A stretch of DNA of 64,000 bases from Myxococcales bacterium (GTDB lineage: Bacteria; Myxococcota_A; Polyangia; Palsa-1104): positions 79,147 to 143,146 of the forward strand of contig PNAM01000079.1 in the NCBI GenBank assembly GCA_003170275.1, read 5' to 3'. Below are positions 21,672-31,326 of the stretch, piece by piece. The position numbers and the translations under genes were made by a program. Every line of letters begins with the position of its first letter. Positions within the stretch are counted from its first letter, which is position 1. The notes under the pieces are model-generated. The model was not told where the DNA came from, did not search any database, and saw only the letters and a program-made list of their open reading frames with translations.

Positions 21672-23668
21672 AGCCACTCGCCCAGCTTGGCGCGCAGCTC
21701 GGCGAGCACCTCGGGATGCGCGTCGGCGACATCGCGGCGCTGCTCGGGATCCGCGGCGAGGTCGAAGAGGCGCCAATGCACCCCATCTGGAGCGGGCTGA
21801 TACACCAGCTTCCAGCGCGGCGTGCGGATCGCGCGGACCTTGGCGTCCGTCGATGGGCCTTCGAAGCGCGGCTGCAGGAAGATGTCGCCGTCGTCGGCAG
21901 CCTCGGTCGAATGCCACAGGTCGGGATAGGGCAGTCGATCTCCGGCGCGGTAGCCCGGCCCGGACTCGAGCAGCCACAGTCCGCTCTCCTCGAACGAGCT
22001 CAGCTCGAGCGATTCGCGCGTCCCGTCGAGGAGTGGCGAGAGATCTACGCCGTCGCCCGCCGGCGCGGCCACGCCCATCAGCGCTCCGAGCGTAGGCGCG
22101 AGATCCACGTCGCGCACGATCCCGTCGACGTCGCGCGGCGCGTGCTTGCCGTCGGCGATCACCAGCGGAATGTGATTCGCCAGGTCGCCCCAGAGATGAT
22201 CGCCGTGGCCCATGCCGCGGCCGGGCACGTCGAAGAGATTCTCACCGTGATCGCCGAGCAGCACCACGATCGTGTGCTCGTCGACGCGCGCGAGCAGACG
22301 CGCGATCGCCGCGTCGACGCTCGCGACCGCGCCGTCGTACAGCGCTTGTACCTGGCGGGCTTCTTCGGGCGGCAGCACCGCCAGCTGCGGCAATGGCTGC
22401 TTGAGGTACCGGTAGGGTCCGCGATATCCCGCGTCGGCGAACTTGCGCCAGAACGGCGTCGGCGCGGCGTAGGGCGTGTGCGGCGCCGAAAAGAACACCG
22501 TGAGGAAGAACGGCGCTCCGGCGAACCGATCGAGCTGGGCCGCGGCGCGGTCGGCGAGCGCCATCGGATCTTCCAGCTCTGCGGTGATGCCGGTCGCCGG
22601 GAACAGGTGGCGCCCGAGCCGCGTGGCGGCATAGGGCAGCACGTTCGGGTGTGCGTTGAGGAGCTGCTCACCGACGATGGTGTCGAGGTTCATCAGCGGA
22701 ACGTCGACGGTGTCGAAGCCGATCGGCGTGCGCGAGAAGATCTCGCCGGCGAAGTCGGAGACCACCGCCGTCCGGTAGCCGGACGCGCGCAGCACCGACG
22801 GCAGCGACGCGCCGATCGCCAGCCGCGCGGCGGCTGGCGGGAACTCGTGGCGGATCCCGTGATGGCTGGGAAAGCGCCCGCTGAGCAGCGAGACGAACGA
22901 GGGGAAGGTGCGCGCCTGCGTGACGAAGGCTTCGCGGAAGCGCACGCCGCGAGCGGCCAGGCCGGCGAGCGTGGGAAAGCGCGCCGCTGCGTCGGGAGCG
23001 AACACGCGATCGGCCCGCAGGCTGTCGACCGCGAGCAGCAGCACGCTCGGCCGCGCGGTCGCAACCGGCTTGGTGGGACGCGCGGCGATCGCAGCCGCTG
23101 CGACGGCGACGGCAGGAACGCCCAGCGCGCCGAGGACGAGGATGGCGCGCCGCCGCAGCCACGCGCGCCCGCGCACGGAGACCACCAGCGGCGCGACGAA
23201 GGCAACCGCCAGCCCGCAGGCCAGCGCCACATCGAGCGTGTCCGTCGAGAGATGATCGGTCGCGAACACCATCGCGGTACGCCGAACGCCGCCGCGCTCG
23301 TAGAAATGCGCCGAGTAGAGCTGCGGGAATTGCGCCATCGAGCGCGCCAGGAACCAGCCGTGGCCGACGAGCGCGCCCAGCAGACCGCGCACGAACGCCC
23401 GACGTGGCGAGCGCCCGCGGGCCAGGTCCCAGGCGCGTCCGGACAGCGCAGCCAGGGCGCCGAATCCAGCGCATGCGCCGACCAGCACCGCCAGCATCAG
23501 CAGCTGCTGCGCGACGGCGTGGGCGCGCGCGCGCTCCAGCACCGCGGCGATCACGCGCGGATCGCGCAGGCCCATGAAGCCAACCTCGCCGCCGGCGAAG
23601 TCGAGCGCGAACAGCGCGCAGCCGACGAGCGCGCCCGCCGCCGGCCCGCTCGCGAGCATCCGTCTCAT
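21662..23668 (-). CDS. Membrane-anchored sulfatase/phosphoglycerol transferase-like protein
   Basis: 668 residues. About five membrane helices (1-205) carry a C-terminal alkaline-phosphatase-superfamily domain: VDSLRAD (metal-binding Asp), FPSFVSLLSGRFPSHHG, SAPHTPY and LLGDHGENL near residue 460 (second metal site). In sulfatases the nucleophile motif is C/S-x-P-x-R; here it reads TFPSF, so Thr may act instead, as in phosphoethanolamine and LTA-type transferases. Its ATG overlaps the stop of the cytochrome gene upstream (ATGA). Confidence 0.82.
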   Translation of the reverse strand: MRRMLASGPAAGALVGCALFALDFAGGEVGFMGLRDPRVIAAVLERARAHAVAQQLLMLAVLVGACAGFGALAALSGRAWDLARGRSPRRAFVRGLLGALVGHGWFLARSMAQFPQLYSAHFYERGGVRRTAMVFATDHLSTDTLDVALACGLAVAFVAPLVVSVRGRAWLRRRAILVLGALGVPAVAVAAAAIAARPTKPVATARPSVLLLAVDSLRADRVFAPDAAARFPTLAGLAARGVRFREAFVTQARTFPSFVSLLSGRFPSHHGIRHEFPPAAARLAIGASLPSVLRASGYRTAVVSDFAGEIFSRTPIGFDTVDVPLMNLDTIVGEQLLNAHPNVLPYAATRLGRHLFPATGITAELEDPMALADRAAAQLDRFAGAPFFLTVFFSAPHTPYAAPTPFWRKFADAGYRGPYRYLKQPLPQLAVLPPEEARQVQALYDGAVASVDAAIARLLARVDEHTIVVLLGDHGENLFDVPGRGMGHGDHLWGDLANHIPLVIADGKHAPRDVDGIVRDVDLAPTLGALMGVAAPAGDGVDLSPLLDGTRESLELSSFEESGLWLLESGPGYRAGDRLPYPDLWHSTEAADDGDIFLQPRFEGPSTDAKVRAIRTPRWKLVYQPAPDGVHWRLFDLAADPEQRRDVADAHPEVLAELRAKLGEWLQR

Positions 23669-25512
23669 CGCTTCACCGTACCCTTGAGCTCGCGCTCGAG
23701 GCGCTCGCGCACATCGGGCAGATGCAGACCGTCTCGCTCGTGCGGAAGAGCGATCCGCTCCAACAGCTCGACCAGCGCGAGCGCGTCGCGAAACTCCCCG
23801 CGACGGTGACGCAAGGTGATGAGGTGCACCAGGCCGGAGGTGGGCGGCTGCTGGTGCGCGAGCGTGTCGGCGAGGTCGCGCTCGAAGGCCGCGGCATCGA
23901 GCTGGCCCGGGTCGTTGACCATCGAGAACGTCTCCAGTCGCACGAACGGATGCGGATCCGCGAGGCCGAGCTCGATCCAACGCTTCCGCCCGCCGGCATC
24001 GTGATGATCGAGCGCGCGGATGGCGATCGAGCGGAGCTGCGGATCGCCGTCGCTGGCAAACGGCGCGACGCGCGGCACCACGCTCGCATCCGGCGGTTGG
24101 ATCACCAGCAGATCGAGCGCCGACGCGCGCAGGTACGCGCTCGGCTCATCGAGCAGGGCGAGCAGCCGCTGGGTCGCGCCGGGCGCCCGCTTGCGCGCGA
24201 GCGCGATGGTGCGCACCCACTCGCGCACGCCGGTCGCGCGCCGCTGGCCCCAGCGCTCGAGCGCCGCCAGCGCCCACTCGGGCGTTCGCTCGCGATGGCA
24301 GGTGGTGCACGCGTTGGGATTGCCGAGCTCGAGGGTCTCGCGCGGCCGCGGGATGGAGATCGAATGATCGGACGTGCGCTGCCGGCGCGTGTCGTCGTCG
24401 CCGATGAACGAATAGGCCATGTGGCAATCGACGCAGCGGATCGCCGGCGCCATGGGATGATGCGAGTGGCGAATCGCCGCAGCCGGCGCCAGGCGATCGC
24501 GATGGCAGATCGTGCACTGCCGGTTCGACTCCGCGCCGGTCGCCGGCTCACCGACGAAGTCGCGCGCGGTGAGGCCGTGCGGCTCGTGGCAGCCCTTGCA
24601 GGTGAGCGCTCCGCCGCGGAAGCACGCGCTCAGCACGTGTCCGGGGTATTGGTAGCTCGTCAAGCGCTGCGTGCCGTCGGGGCGGAGCGCGTCGTGGATC
24701 AGGCTGGTGACGAAGATGTCGGGCAGCCCGTCGGGCGCGCGCGGAAATACGTAGGGCTTGAGCTGAAAGCCGTGGCACTGCCCGCACACGCGCGCCTCCT
24801 CGCGACCGCCGAGCGGACGCAAATCGCGGAGACTGTCGTCGCTGCGCCCGGCGCGCCGGCGGCGGATGTGCTCCACAGCGGCGCCGTGGCAGCTCTCGCA
24901 GTCGATGCGCAGATCGGCCCAGCGCGTCTCGACCGGAGCGGTGGTGCGATAGGCCTGGCTCAGGTGGCAGGAGAAGCAGCCGCCGGTCATGTCGAAGCCG
25001 CCCCAGTAGCCCTTGAGGTCGCGGTCGAGGCCGCCGCCCTGGTAGAGCGAGGTGGGAATCCATTCGTTGGTTCTGGTGCACCAGATGATCGGCAGCAGGC
25101 TGAACGCGCCGTCGTCCGCGCGCGCGACGTAGAGCTGGTGCTGGCGGCCCGACGCGATCACCAGATCGACCTTGCGTCGTTCGACGAAGCCGCGCGCCGA
25201 GCGCATCTCCATGAAGTAGCCGTCGGGCGTCAGCGACGGTGTGACCGCGCCATCGGCCAACGCGACCGGCGCGCCGGCGAACGGCGCGAGCACCGACTGC
25301 GACGACGCCGGCGCCATCGCGCGTCCGTGCGGCGAGCGCGCCCAGGCATCGACGATCTTCCCGTGGCACTCCGCGCACGCCGCGGCGCCGGCCAGCTCGG
25401 CCACCGGCACCGACGTAGGCAGCGTCGCCGGCAGCGTCGCGGCAAGGGGCGCCTCCTTGGGTGGCGGCTTCGCGCAGCCCGCAGCGAGCAGAACGAAGAA
25501 CAGGAGTCGCAT
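23665..25512 (-). CDS. Octahaem cytochrome c lipoprotein with HEAT-like C-terminus
   Basis: 615 residues. Lipoprotein signal with LLAAGC (Cys 13). Eight CXXCH motifs are visible: CAECH, CFSCH, CESCH, CGQCH, CKGCH, CTICH, CVDCH and CTTCH, spread over residues 45-410. The order resembles cytochrome c554-type folds. From about residue 420 the protein becomes a helical HEAT/TPR-like array (ALERWGQRRATGV, LLALLDEPSAYLRASALDLL). It should sit in the periplasm or on the outer membrane and carry electrons. Co-transcribed with the membrane sulfatase-fold gene. Confidence 0.9.
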   Translation of the reverse strand: MRLLFFVLLAAGCAKPPPKEAPLAATLPATLPTSVPVAELAGAAACAECHGKIVDAWARSPHGRAMAPASSQSVLAPFAGAPVALADGAVTPSLTPDGYFMEMRSARGFVERRKVDLVIASGRQHQLYVARADDGAFSLLPIIWCTRTNEWIPTSLYQGGGLDRDLKGYWGGFDMTGGCFSCHLSQAYRTTAPVETRWADLRIDCESCHGAAVEHIRRRRAGRSDDSLRDLRPLGGREEARVCGQCHGFQLKPYVFPRAPDGLPDIFVTSLIHDALRPDGTQRLTSYQYPGHVLSACFRGGALTCKGCHEPHGLTARDFVGEPATGAESNRQCTICHRDRLAPAAAIRHSHHPMAPAIRCVDCHMAYSFIGDDDTRRQRTSDHSISIPRPRETLELGNPNACTTCHRERTPEWALAALERWGQRRATGVREWVRTIALARKRAPGATQRLLALLDEPSAYLRASALDLLVIQPPDASVVPRVAPFASDGDPQLRSIAIRALDHHDAGGRKRWIELGLADPHPFVRLETFSMVNDPGQLDAAAFERDLADTLAHQQPPTSGLVHLITLRHRRGEFRDALALVELLERIALPHERDGLHLPDVRERLERELKGTVKR

Positions 25513-27898: not shown

Positions 27899-29848
27899 TC
27901 AGCGCCAGGCGGGCGGCAGCCACTGCGTTGCATCGCTCAAGTGACGGCCCTGCTTGGCGACGAAGTACGCACGCGCTCGCGCGATCTCGTCGCCGCGCGC
28001 CTGATCTCCCGAGGCAGCGTAGTTGGCGGATAGCTTTTCGAGCACCCACGCATCGCCCGGCGAGCTGCGACGGGCCGCTTCCAGGCGCTCGATCGCCTGC
28101 GCGCGTTTTCCCGCACGCAGCGCCAGCGCCGCCAGCCCGACCTGCGCCGCTCCCGCCATCGCCTTCTCGGCCACCGCGCGCTCGAACAGCACGCGCGCCT
28201 CGTCGACCTGTCCGCGGCGGAACAGGAAGACGCCTTTCGCTTCGAGCGCGCTCGGGTTCCCGGGATCGAGCGCGAGCGCCCGATCGAGCGCGCGCTGCGC
28301 CTCCGCGGCGTCGTCGTCAAGCGTGCGGCGCGCGTACTCGACCAGCGCCGCGCTCCCGTCGGGCTGGGCGCGCAACATAGCGACGAGCGCCGCGAGCGCG
28401 CGGGGCGAATCGTGCAGCTGGTCGAACTGCATCGTCAGCCACTGGTACAGCTTCGGCACCGCTGGCCGCGACGGCAGCACGCCCGCGATCCGACGCGCCG
28501 CCTCGTCTCGCTGGCCTTCGCCCGCCAGCGCCAGCGCCTCGAGCGCCGGCATCTCGGAGCCGGCGACCGGCTCGCCGACGAACGCCGACCACGACTGAAG
28601 ACGCGCCGTCTTCTCCTCCGGTCCCGGCTTGACGGGCGGTGGCCGTCGCTGAATGAAGTGGTCGGTCACGATCACCAGCGGCAGCATCGAGGTCGGTCCC
28701 GCGCGCATGTGGCAGCGAACGCAGTGGCCGTCCTCCTTCGCCTGCTCCGCCTTCGGCGCCGAGCAGCGCTTGTCGCGGTGGCACGCCTCGCACTTTTGGT
28801 CCCACCATGCCGGCGGCTCGTCGCGGGAGCTCACGTGCGGGTCGTGGCAGCTGGTGCAGGTGAGCTTCTTTGATGAGCCGCGCCAGCAAGCGCTACGCAC
28901 CATGCGGTCGGAATGAGCGACCAGGTAGAAGCGATCCGACTCGGGCGTCTCGGCGAGGAAATTCACTCGAAACGCGTCCAGCGGCTCGCCAGGCCGGTAG
29001 CTGAACTCGTGCCGACCCACGCGCGCCTGCGACCGCTCCTGCAAGTGGCATTGCGTGCACACGTCGAGCTGCCTGAGTGGCGAGAGGCGCGACGGGTTGA
29101 CGATGTCTTCGCCCCTGAGCGTCTCGAGATGGCGCGCGCCCGGCCCGTGGCATCGCTCACAGCCGACCCCCGCCGGCATCGCGCCGACGAACACGTCGTC
29201 GCTGCCGGCCAAGCGTCGCGGATAGTCCGAATGGCACGAGATGCAGAACGTGTCGAGCGAACGGCCGAACCGGAAGTTGCCGCCCGAGGCGCCCGGGTCG
29301 AGGTCCCAGCGCCCGAGCTTGGCGTAGTAGTCGATGGGGAACTGATAGAAGCGCTCGCCCTTGCGCGAGTAGAACGACATGCCGTAACTACCCGCGCTCA
29401 GCGAGTGCGTGACCGGCTCGCTGATGGAGTGCACCGGCTTCCCGTCGTCACCGACGAGAAACTCTTCGATGAGGTAGCGCCCGTTCTTGCGCACCGGCCG
29501 GTAGCGCAGCCCGGAGCCCGCATGCAGCACCGAGGTTCCCGCGGCCGCGTCGAAGATGCCGGCCAGCCAGCGCGGATCCAGCGACTCGATTGGCCGCAAC
29601 CCGGTGGACGCCATCGAGTGCTTCGCGTAGCTCGCAAATATCTTCTTGTGGCACGGCTGGCACGCCGCCGAGCCGACGTAGCCCGGCTCGGCGAGCCCGC
29701 CTTCCGGGGTCGACGGCAGCGGCCGGCTCCAGTCGAGCGGTGTCGAGTCCCAGCGGATCGACGCGAGCGGATCCGGGTGTGCAGTCGGCGCCAGCCGGCG
29801 CTCACAAGCAAACAGAGAGAGAGAGAGAAGCAGCACGGCCCGCAGCAC
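27899..29848 (-). CDS. Heptahaem cytochrome c lipoprotein with TPR C-terminus
   Basis: 649 residues. The signal has the lipobox LSLFAC (Cys 15). Seven CXXCH motifs (CQPCH, CISCH, CERCH, CTQCH, CTSCH, CEACH, CVRCH) lie in residues 60-385. SAGSYGMSFYSRKGERFYQF is a segment seen in cytochrome c554-type proteins. The last 200 residues are TPR repeats (ALDRALALDPGNPSALEAKG, VFLFRRGQVDEARVLFERAV). Similar plan to the octahaem protein 2 kb away, but too different to be a recent copy. Probable electron carrier in the periplasm or at the cell surface. Confidence 0.9.
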   Translation of the reverse strand: MLRAVLLLSLSLFACERRLAPTAHPDPLASIRWDSTPLDWSRPLPSTPEGGLAEPGYVGSAACQPCHKKIFASYAKHSMASTGLRPIESLDPRWLAGIFDAAAGTSVLHAGSGLRYRPVRKNGRYLIEEFLVGDDGKPVHSISEPVTHSLSAGSYGMSFYSRKGERFYQFPIDYYAKLGRWDLDPGASGGNFRFGRSLDTFCISCHSDYPRRLAGSDDVFVGAMPAGVGCERCHGPGARHLETLRGEDIVNPSRLSPLRQLDVCTQCHLQERSQARVGRHEFSYRPGEPLDAFRVNFLAETPESDRFYLVAHSDRMVRSACWRGSSKKLTCTSCHDPHVSSRDEPPAWWDQKCEACHRDKRCSAPKAEQAKEDGHCVRCHMRAGPTSMLPLVIVTDHFIQRRPPPVKPGPEEKTARLQSWSAFVGEPVAGSEMPALEALALAGEGQRDEAARRIAGVLPSRPAVPKLYQWLTMQFDQLHDSPRALAALVAMLRAQPDGSAALVEYARRTLDDDAAEAQRALDRALALDPGNPSALEAKGVFLFRRGQVDEARVLFERAVAEKAMAGAAQVGLAALALRAGKRAQAIERLEAARRSSPGDAWVLEKLSANYAASGDQARGDEIARARAYFVAKQGRHLSDATQWLPPAWR

Positions 29849-30143
29849 GGGTTTCTAACTGTACTCGATCTAGTTGGCGGGAGCCGAATGATCGGCTGCA
29901 CCGCCGGCTCGATCCGCTTTTTGAACAGCTCGTTCAAGACTTGAACACAAAAATTGAACAAGCGACCCGCCATTCGCCGGCAAGTCCTTGAAACTCCGCC
30001 ACCTCGGGATCGGATCGGAAATTGCTGTGACGGCTGCTACAAGAACTTCAGTGGATCGCGACCAGAAACAGCAACAGGAGCCCGTGAAAAAAGTGGTTTA
30101 CTTTTTTTGCGAGAAAAACTAGTGTCTCAGGAGACTGAATTTT
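29849..30143. other. Intergenic region upstream of the riboswitch
   Basis: About 295 bases, clearly less GC-rich than the flanks. It holds the TTGAAC repeats noted separately and an AT-rich block near 30085-30120, the likely promoter area for the riboswitch-controlled gene. A GTCT-CAGG-AGAC mini-hairpin lies at 30124-30135. A 93-codon frame here (29954-30235) has unlikely composition and crosses the riboswitch, so no gene is called. Confidence 0.5.
29921..29959. promoter_or_regulatory. Cluster of TTGAAC half-sites with a palindrome
   Basis: TTGAAC occurs at 29921, 29941 and 29954, and its complement GTTCAA at 29932. The middle pair forms a perfect palindrome, GTTCAA-gac-TTGAAC (29932-29946). 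Four copies in 39 bases of high-GC DNA look like an operator for a dimeric regulator acting on the riboswitch gene or the divergent cytochrome gene. No regulator is identified. Confidence 0.35.
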
Positions 30144-30225
30144 CTCCTCGAAATGGCAAACGCCGGGCGACCGGCGGACGCAAAGCCTGGGGGACTCTAA
30201 GAGTCGGCCCGGCTACCGAAAGGAG
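30144..30225 (+). ncRNA. Cyclic di-GMP-I (GEMM-I) riboswitch
   Basis: The conserved parts appear in order: GGCAAAC (30155-30161), a GC stem closed by the GNRA loop GCGA, GGACGCAAAGCC (30176-30187), a second hairpin (GACT/AGTC) and CCCGGCTACCGA. The flanking CTCCT (30144-30148) can pair with AGGAG (30221-30225) as helix P1. AGGAG is also the ribosome binding site of the gene starting at 30232, so ligand-bound P1 would block translation. The ligand-selecting base aligned with G20 of the Vc2 riboswitch is G, which favours c-di-GMP over cGAMP. Confidence 0.8.
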
Positions 30226-30231
30226 CCCACG

Positions 30232-31326
30232 ATGACGAAGCGATGGTATTCTCTGTTGGCGGGTGGATTGTTGGTGGCAGGCTGCAGCGGGGTTGCGCAG
30301 CGGCCCGGCGCGATCGACCTCCAGGAGGGAATCAACCTCCTCGACGTCAAGGACGCGGCCTGGGGCGCAAACGCGGCCTATAAAGAATCCGGGCGGCTCG
30401 TGTTCATCGAGACGCGCGTCGGTTCGCTCAAGCCGGAGATTTATCGAAACGACGCGCCGAACGAGCCGGCCTACGAGATGGACCTGCGGTTCGTCGATCA
30501 GGACAACCACACCTTCTATGTGATGCGCGGCGGCGATACCTTCGCCGATCCGACCTGGGCGCAGGACATCGCGGCCTCGCGGCACGCGAAGATCGACTTC
30601 GCGGCGCGCGCGGTCGACTTCAAGCTGGCCCAGAAGGCGGCGACGGCGCTCGGGCAGGTGTTGCCGGCCTCGTTCAAGGACCACACCTTCCACGTGACCC
30701 AGTTCGCGAAGCAGCTCGTGCCGTCGGAAGACCCGGCGATGATCGCCAAGACGGCGCAGATCTCGCTGACGCCGCCGCCCGCCGTCGGTCCGAACGGCGA
30801 GCAGGGTTATGGCAGCTACAACAACGGCGGCTATGAATGGCTCGAGACCGACAAGTACTCGGGCTCGACCGGCTGCGCTTTCTGGATCTGCGCTGCGAAG
30901 CACTCGGCGACGATTCAGTGGTCGTGGTCCTGGAACGGCAGCGCCGCGGTCGGCCCGACCTTCGCCATCAACGCCAACAACCACGGCCGCGCCTACAACG
31001 GCAGCGGTATGGGCTACGACTGCTACTCGAACGGCGGCTGGTACTGGGCGCGGACCATCACGGGTTCGACCGCCGGCAGCGCCACGGGATCGTGGGACGG
31101 TCAGGGCGCTTGCCAGACCGGGTACAGCTGGAGCTCGAACAACAACGCCCACCTCTGCAACGACGACGCGGCGTATGAGCTCTGGGAGGCGAAGTACGGC
31201 GACCAGAACAACATCAGCTTCTCGGTCCAGGAGTACGGAACTCACGGTGGCGCGGGCACGTCGAACCCGTCGACGTTCTCCTGCAACTATCCGAACGGCG
31301 ACTGGAACACCCCGAACTGCCCGTAA
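30232..31326 (+). CDS. Secreted lipoprotein under riboswitch control
   Basis: 364 residues. Lipoprotein signal MTKRWYSLLAGGLLVAGC. Residues 20-190 form a mixed domain (LRFVDQDNHTFYVMRGGDTF). From about 195 on, the protein is rich in Gly, Asn, Ser, Tyr and Trp (YGSYNNGGYEWL, SATIQWSWSWNG, NPSTFSCNYPNGDWNTP) with paired cysteines, like an extracellular carbohydrate-binding or structural domain. No family is recognised. Translation is probably switched by c-di-GMP, which points to a role in adhesion, matrix or surface change. Confidence 0.8.
   Translation: MTKRWYSLLAGGLLVAGCSGVAQRPGAIDLQEGINLLDVKDAAWGANAAYKESGRLVFIETRVGSLKPEIYRNDAPNEPAYEMDLRFVDQDNHTFYVMRGGDTFADPTWAQDIAASRHAKIDFAARAVDFKLAQKAATALGQVLPASFKDHTFHVTQFAKQLVPSEDPAMIAKTAQISLTPPPAVGPNGEQGYGSYNNGGYEWLETDKYSGSTGCAFWICAAKHSATIQWSWSWNGSAAVGPTFAINANNHGRAYNGSGMGYDCYSNGGWYWARTITGSTAGSATGSWDGQGACQTGYSWSSNNNAHLCNDDAAYELWEAKYGDQNNISFSVQEYGTHGGAGTSNPSTFSCNYPNGDWNTPNCP

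Follow-up and report, generated by a model that had tools for sequence, protein, structure and literature searches.

A c-di-GMP-I riboswitch whose P1 helix may hide the ribosome binding site of a lipoprotein gene

An initial annotation of the window analysed here (a 64-kb stretch of DNA) proposed that a c-di-GMP-I riboswitch precedes a lipoprotein gene, that its P1 helix can hide the ribosome binding site (RBS) of this gene and that c-di-GMP turns translation off. This raises the question of whether the element is a genuine member of the GEMM-I family and, if so, at what level and with what sign it would act. A cmscan search of Rfam revealed a significant match on the + strand to the covariance model of the family (RF01051; 58.1 bits, E 9.3e-9, against a gathering score of 35 bits), which bore out the proposed aptamer, and re-reading of the sequence found all of the motifs named in the initial annotation in their places (Table 1). 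The alignment covers the full length of the model (positions 1-87 of 87), with no non-standard pairs marked. Because of this covariance score, we regard it as settled, on sequence grounds, that the segment is a genuine c-di-GMP-I riboswitch by family membership. No other match to RF01051 was found in the genome assembly (8.17 Mb), and the Rfam scan of the window placed only two tRNAs above threshold besides the riboswitch. In the structure line returned by cmscan, the pairs of P2 and P3 are all standard, and the P2 loop (GCGA) is of the GNRA type.

Table 1. Features of the riboswitch and its surroundings, with their positions in the window.
Feature	Position	Strand	Basis or remark
15-bp palindrome GTTCAAGACTTGAAC	29932..29946	.	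candidate enhancer-binding-protein site
Candidate sigma-54 promoter CGGATCGGAAATTGCT (GG-N10-GC)	30011..30026	+	9/12 consensus matches; start predicted near 30037
Candidate competing 5' hairpin, AGGAGA 30129-30134 : UCUCCU 30143-30148	30129..30148	+	Shine-Dalgarno mimic; computed pair probability
CTCCT	30144-30148	+	sequence
P1 5' strand CUCCUCG (anti-Shine-Dalgarno CUCCU + CG)	30144..30150	+	complementary to 30217-30218 and 30221-30225
c-di-GMP-I (GEMM-I) riboswitch aptamer	30145..30220	+	Rfam RF01051
GGCAAAC	30155-30161	+	sequence
G20 equivalent, ligand-selectivity base	30155	+	G = c-di-GMP type; sequence position
P2 stem	30161..30176	+	6 bp, 30161-30166/30171-30176, GCGA tetraloop 30167-30170; cmscan structure line
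GGACGCAAAGCC	30176-30187	+	sequence
A47 equivalent, ligand-contact base	30182	+	within GCAAAGCC; alignment to Rfam
P3 stem with short apical hairpin GACUCUAAGAGUC	30184..30214	+	cmscan structure line
CTACCGA	30213-30219	+	sequence
C92 equivalent, ligand-contact base	30216	+	first C of ACCGA; homology
P1 3' strand CGAAAGGAG	30217..30225	+	includes RBS AGGAG 30221-30225
AGGAG	30221-30225	+	sequence
364-aa lipoprotein, uncharacterised family	30232..31326	+	translation; lipobox LVAGC, Cys18

A known relative for comparison is Vc2, found upstream of VC1722/tfoY in Vibrio cholerae, in which the ligand is contacted by G20, A47 and C92 (PMC4744006); the equivalent of G20 in Cd1 is G11 (PMC9262584). 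According to the Rfam alignment, all three contact residues of Vc2 are intact here as G30155, A30182 and C30216. It is unlikely that the same aptamer and platform have 3',3'-cGAMP as their natural ligand, as GEMM-Ib elements do. One GGDEF domain in the genome carries the Hypr signature (NDSYGHLAGS + RYGGDEF; L124, G000:C85:20738-21247) and is a candidate cGAMP synthase, since a Hypr-type GGDEF makes cGAMP in Geobacter (PMC6456294), and position 20 is known to be a selectivity factor, not a hard filter (PMC9262584). However, the base at this position is G, as in Vc2, in place of the A that marks GEMM-Ib and that we found in 5 of 72 elements of the class, and of the approximately 20 GGDEF domains in the genome, 11 show the canonical D where the Hypr signature would differ. 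The GEMM-Ib riboswitches of Geobacter (pilM, pgcA) share the fold and RNA family and likewise serve surface or envelope genes, including those of lipoproteins (PMC6456294), but they combine A at the selectivity position with transcriptional ON control, whereas the window element combines G with a translational OFF layout. A further five of the 72 class elements (L008, L009, L056, L086 and L091) have C at position 20 (CGCAA), which fits neither the G of the c-di-GMP type nor the A of the cGAMP type.

CTCCT is complementary to AGGAG, as the initial annotation had noted, and AGGAG is the RBS of the next gene, 6 nt ahead of the ATG at 30232. Because of this CUCCU/AGGAG pairing and the position of the start codon, the RBS constitutes one strand of P1. 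The possible helix has 7 bp, in which CUCCU (30144-30148) pairs with the Shine-Dalgarno (SD) sequence AGGAG (30221-30225) and C30149-G30150 with C30217-G30218, with a bulge of two As at 30219-30220. Base composition would place CTCCT in one or other of the four possible P1 registers of this 5' strand with a probability of about 0.003. Some GEMM-I elements are nevertheless transcriptional, among them Cd1, Bc1 and pilM (PMC9262584, PMC11218506); moreover, P1 is necessarily near any close-set RBS, and conservation of the SD eases the gain of CUCC-rich 5' strands, so that the overlap of P1 and RBS could be incidental to a main effect on transcription (by a terminator or Rho) or on mRNA stability. 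We consider this distinctly unlikely, as the ATG follows the aptamer after just 11 nt, a scan of the + strand between 29850 and 30260, and thus of the stretch between aptamer and gene, revealed no terminator-like site, and in the class comparison described below the match of the 5' strand to the SD is specific. Cd1, from the flagellar operon of C. difficile, which c-di-GMP turns OFF, and the Bc-type elements of B. thuringiensis share the aptamer family with the window element, but are built on transcriptional terminator platforms (PMC9262584, PMC11218506), whereas here the RBS lies in P1.

Turning to the relatives of the element, 49 of 318 genomes from the same class contain RF01051 matches. 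The SD lies directly 3' of CCGAA in about 49 of 71 distinct GEMM-I elements. In these, pairing between the 5' P1 strand and the SD region has a mean of -6.5 kcal/mol, whereas upstream-shifted windows reach -3.5 to -4.5 kcal/mol and shuffled strands -5.1 kcal/mol. When 3' strands were exchanged freely between loci, covariation was not significant (p=0.16 overall, 0.24 with one element per genus), because the SD strand hardly varies; in a register-limited test of P1, native combinations formed 3.58 pairs against 3.41 for permuted ones (p=0.003). Compensated variants include CUCCA:UGGAG (L049), UCCA:UGGA (L059, L060 and L062) and CCUCUUG:CAAGGGG (L074). Two other GEMM-I elements precede homologues of the window lipoprotein and are its closest relatives at the level of the gene: in L004, whose protein is 53% identical, the P1 pairing CUCCU:AGGAG is kept, while the P1-SD contact of L041 comprises only 3 bp (CCU:AGG). 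Covariation support for P1 thus appears real but modest, and the better-than-shifted pairing, the compensated variants and the register-limited test lend support to the overlap of P1 and RBS, with related loci appearing to favour a P1 that sequesters the RBS. Within a single genus (g35) we also observed pairs of GEMM-I aptamers 70-195 nt apart (L077, L066/L079 and L081), which are candidate tandem riboswitches.

A third strand, which the initial annotation had missed and the follow-up analysis added, lies upstream of P1, where an SD mimic could capture the 5' P1 strand in a competing hairpin. In computed ensembles without ligand, the pair probability of this hairpin was 0.94 for RNA starting at 30129, 0.71 from 30126 and 0.47 from 30037, whereas P1-SD pairs reached at most about 0.14. 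The hairpin state beat the P1 state by 2.4-5.0 kcal/mol without ligand in leaders modelled to 30231 or 30260, and for two longer leaders the cost of exchanging the hairpin for P1 rose to as much as 5.7 kcal/mol (range 2.4-5.7 over eight leader versions). Across the class, pairing of the 5' P1 strand with sequence 8-45 nt upstream of it reaches -8.35 kcal/mol, against -6.9 kcal/mol by chance, a value that none of 5000 permutations and none of 200 shuffles matched; for the window leader alone, comparison with shuffles gave p ~0.02. Because the upstream pairing beats chance and the folds favour the hairpin, we infer an exchange between SD mimic, anti-SD and SD. P1 alone is weak in the computed folds and the ligand must therefore pay several kcal/mol. 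Several of the folds computed without ligand pair the SD to C30216-C30217 or to early coding sequence, which leaves the modelled ON state not fully open. A transcript start at or after 30132 would delete most of the competing strand.

From the aptamer, the complementarities and the architecture observed across the class we infer ligand binding, strand exchange, the sign of regulation and the promoter, and we think it likely that this genuine c-di-GMP-I riboswitch is a translational OFF switch operating by three-strand exchange. In the absence of ligand, the 5' P1 strand UCUCCU would be captured by the SD mimic AGGAGA, which would free the RBS of its anti-SD strand. Binding of c-di-GMP at the junction formed by the three contact residues would close P1, in which CUCCU would pair with AGGAG and hide the RBS, such that translation of the lipoprotein would drop. 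In this way c-di-GMP would turn translation off, as first proposed. The reverse, an ON switch in which ligand binding frees the RBS, is predicted for relatives with an SD-like 5' P1 strand, but is most unlikely here, where the 5' P1 strand is instead the SD complement CUCCU, the SD itself forms the other strand of P1 and the stretch from aptamer to start codon contains no second anti-SD. Those ON-type platforms are found in seven elements of the class from two families (L064, L080, L083, L084, L095, L097 and L098), in which a GGGAGCC-type 5' strand pairs with a downstream GGCUCCC that also pairs with the distal SD; they are predicted to be translational ON switches. Most of the seven precede lipoproteins of about 160 aa.

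How the mRNA might be supplied is suggested by a region that the initial annotation did not report. The candidate CGGATCGGAAATTGCT is the best sigma-54 site in the window under a GG-N10-GC consensus with TGGCAC/TTGCW context, although its 9 of 12 matches are not strong alone; the genome has one sigma-54 gene. Of the 71 GEMM-I elements of the class, 10 have an upstream motif that agrees with the consensus at 10 or more of the 12 positions; shuffled sequences would give 0.6 such cases, and the reverse strand gave none. Further upstream lies the palindrome GTTCAAGACTTGAAC. The genome has only five GTTCAN5TGAAC sites, compared with three matches to the reversed control pattern, and the two that are identical in sequence precede the window gene and its paralogue. 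Similar 15-bp palindromes are found ahead of most homologues, and the palindrome itself was not found upstream of other GEMM-I elements. The mRNA would then probably be made from a sigma-54-type promoter whose activator would occupy the palindrome, both the type of promoter and the start being predicted. Two other features of the leader were set aside: a possible sigma-70 promoter (TTTACT-N17-TAGTGT, 30097-30125), which the consensus scan did not list and which we keep as a possibility only, and a 12-codon open reading frame, VKKVVYFFCEKN, from GTG at 30084 to TAG at 30120 (30084-30122) with its own AGGAG at 30076-30080, which we treat as chance.

The product of the downstream gene has a signal peptide with a lipobox, which confirms that it is a lipoprotein. 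No Pfam or NCBIfam family matched the 364-aa protein, and homologues were found in 26 of the 318 class genomes, including the paralogue in the same genome; those with names come from Myxococcales and Polyangium metagenome assemblies. His224, His251, Cys294, His307, Cys309, Asp312 and a GGD motif are invariant among the homologues. The N-terminal domain was confidently predicted at pLDDT 90.5 (66 for the whole model), and a fold search with either the whole model or this domain returned no PDB match below E 0.47; the best PDB match by sequence, an endochitinase (E 0.007), was judged to be chance. Lipobox signals are common among class GEMM-I genes, occurring in 35 of the 48 with a usable start, compared with 9 of 48 crude gene calls that form a small background from the window only. 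Adjoining the riboswitch gene on the - strand (23668-25512 and 27902-29848) are genes for two multihaem cytochrome-like proteins with CXXCH motifs and Cytochrome_C7/C554 matches, one of them fused to TPR repeats.

The paralogue, whose truncated leader had escaped the initial annotation, offers a comparison within the genome. Its leader (L042:1330-1476, G000:C115) shares with the window both a CGGATCGGAAATTGCT-type site and the palindrome, and reads ...CAGTCTGCCCAGCTACCGAAAGGAGACTGACCATG, which corresponds to the 3' end of the aptamer and the RBS; P2 and the 5' P1 strand are absent, and an Rfam search of this leader detected no riboswitch remnant by score. As judged from these sequences, the paralogue may have lost the riboswitch and kept the promoter. 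Downstream of the palindrome and sigma-54-like site the leader keeps CAGTCTGCCCAGCTACCGAAAGGAGACTG, in which pairing of CAGTCT with AGACTG could enclose the SD in a constitutive hairpin.

Sensors of this type are well known, while the gene, the likely sigma-54 promoter and the three-strand switch are new details. Vc2 belongs to the same Rfam family and has been described as a translational OFF switch in which P1 stability is the regulatory element (PMC9262584), although a 2016 study of Vibrio GEMM-I riboswitches called it unclear how Vc1 and Vc2 control their genes (PMC4744006); Vc1 (ON) and Vc2 (OFF) provide a precedent for both signs in one family (PMC4744006, PMC9262584). The window element differs from Vc2 in phylum and gene, in having the SD itself as the 3' strand of P1 and, possibly, in having a dedicated upstream SD mimic that competes for the other strand. 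The literature searched gave no direct precedent for GEMM-I in Myxococcota, or for its combination with sigma-54 and lipoproteins. We tentatively suggest, as one possible generalisation, that the GEMM-I riboswitches of the class place secreted lipoproteins under a layer of c-di-GMP control, often downstream of sigma-54 promoters, in which the 5' P1 strand sets the sign of the response: a CUCC complement of the SD with an upstream competing hairpin would give OFF, and a GGGAG mimic of the SD would give ON. On this view the window element is of the OFF type, and each of its three strands can be seen. An RBS that doubles as a P1 strand, together with a visible competitor, makes this short leader suited to testing three-strand exchange through mutation and compensation. 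The finding connects c-di-GMP with a family of surface lipoproteins of myxobacterial type that had not been filed before, and suggests a division of labour in which a sigma-54 signal sets the supply of mRNA and c-di-GMP sets its translation.
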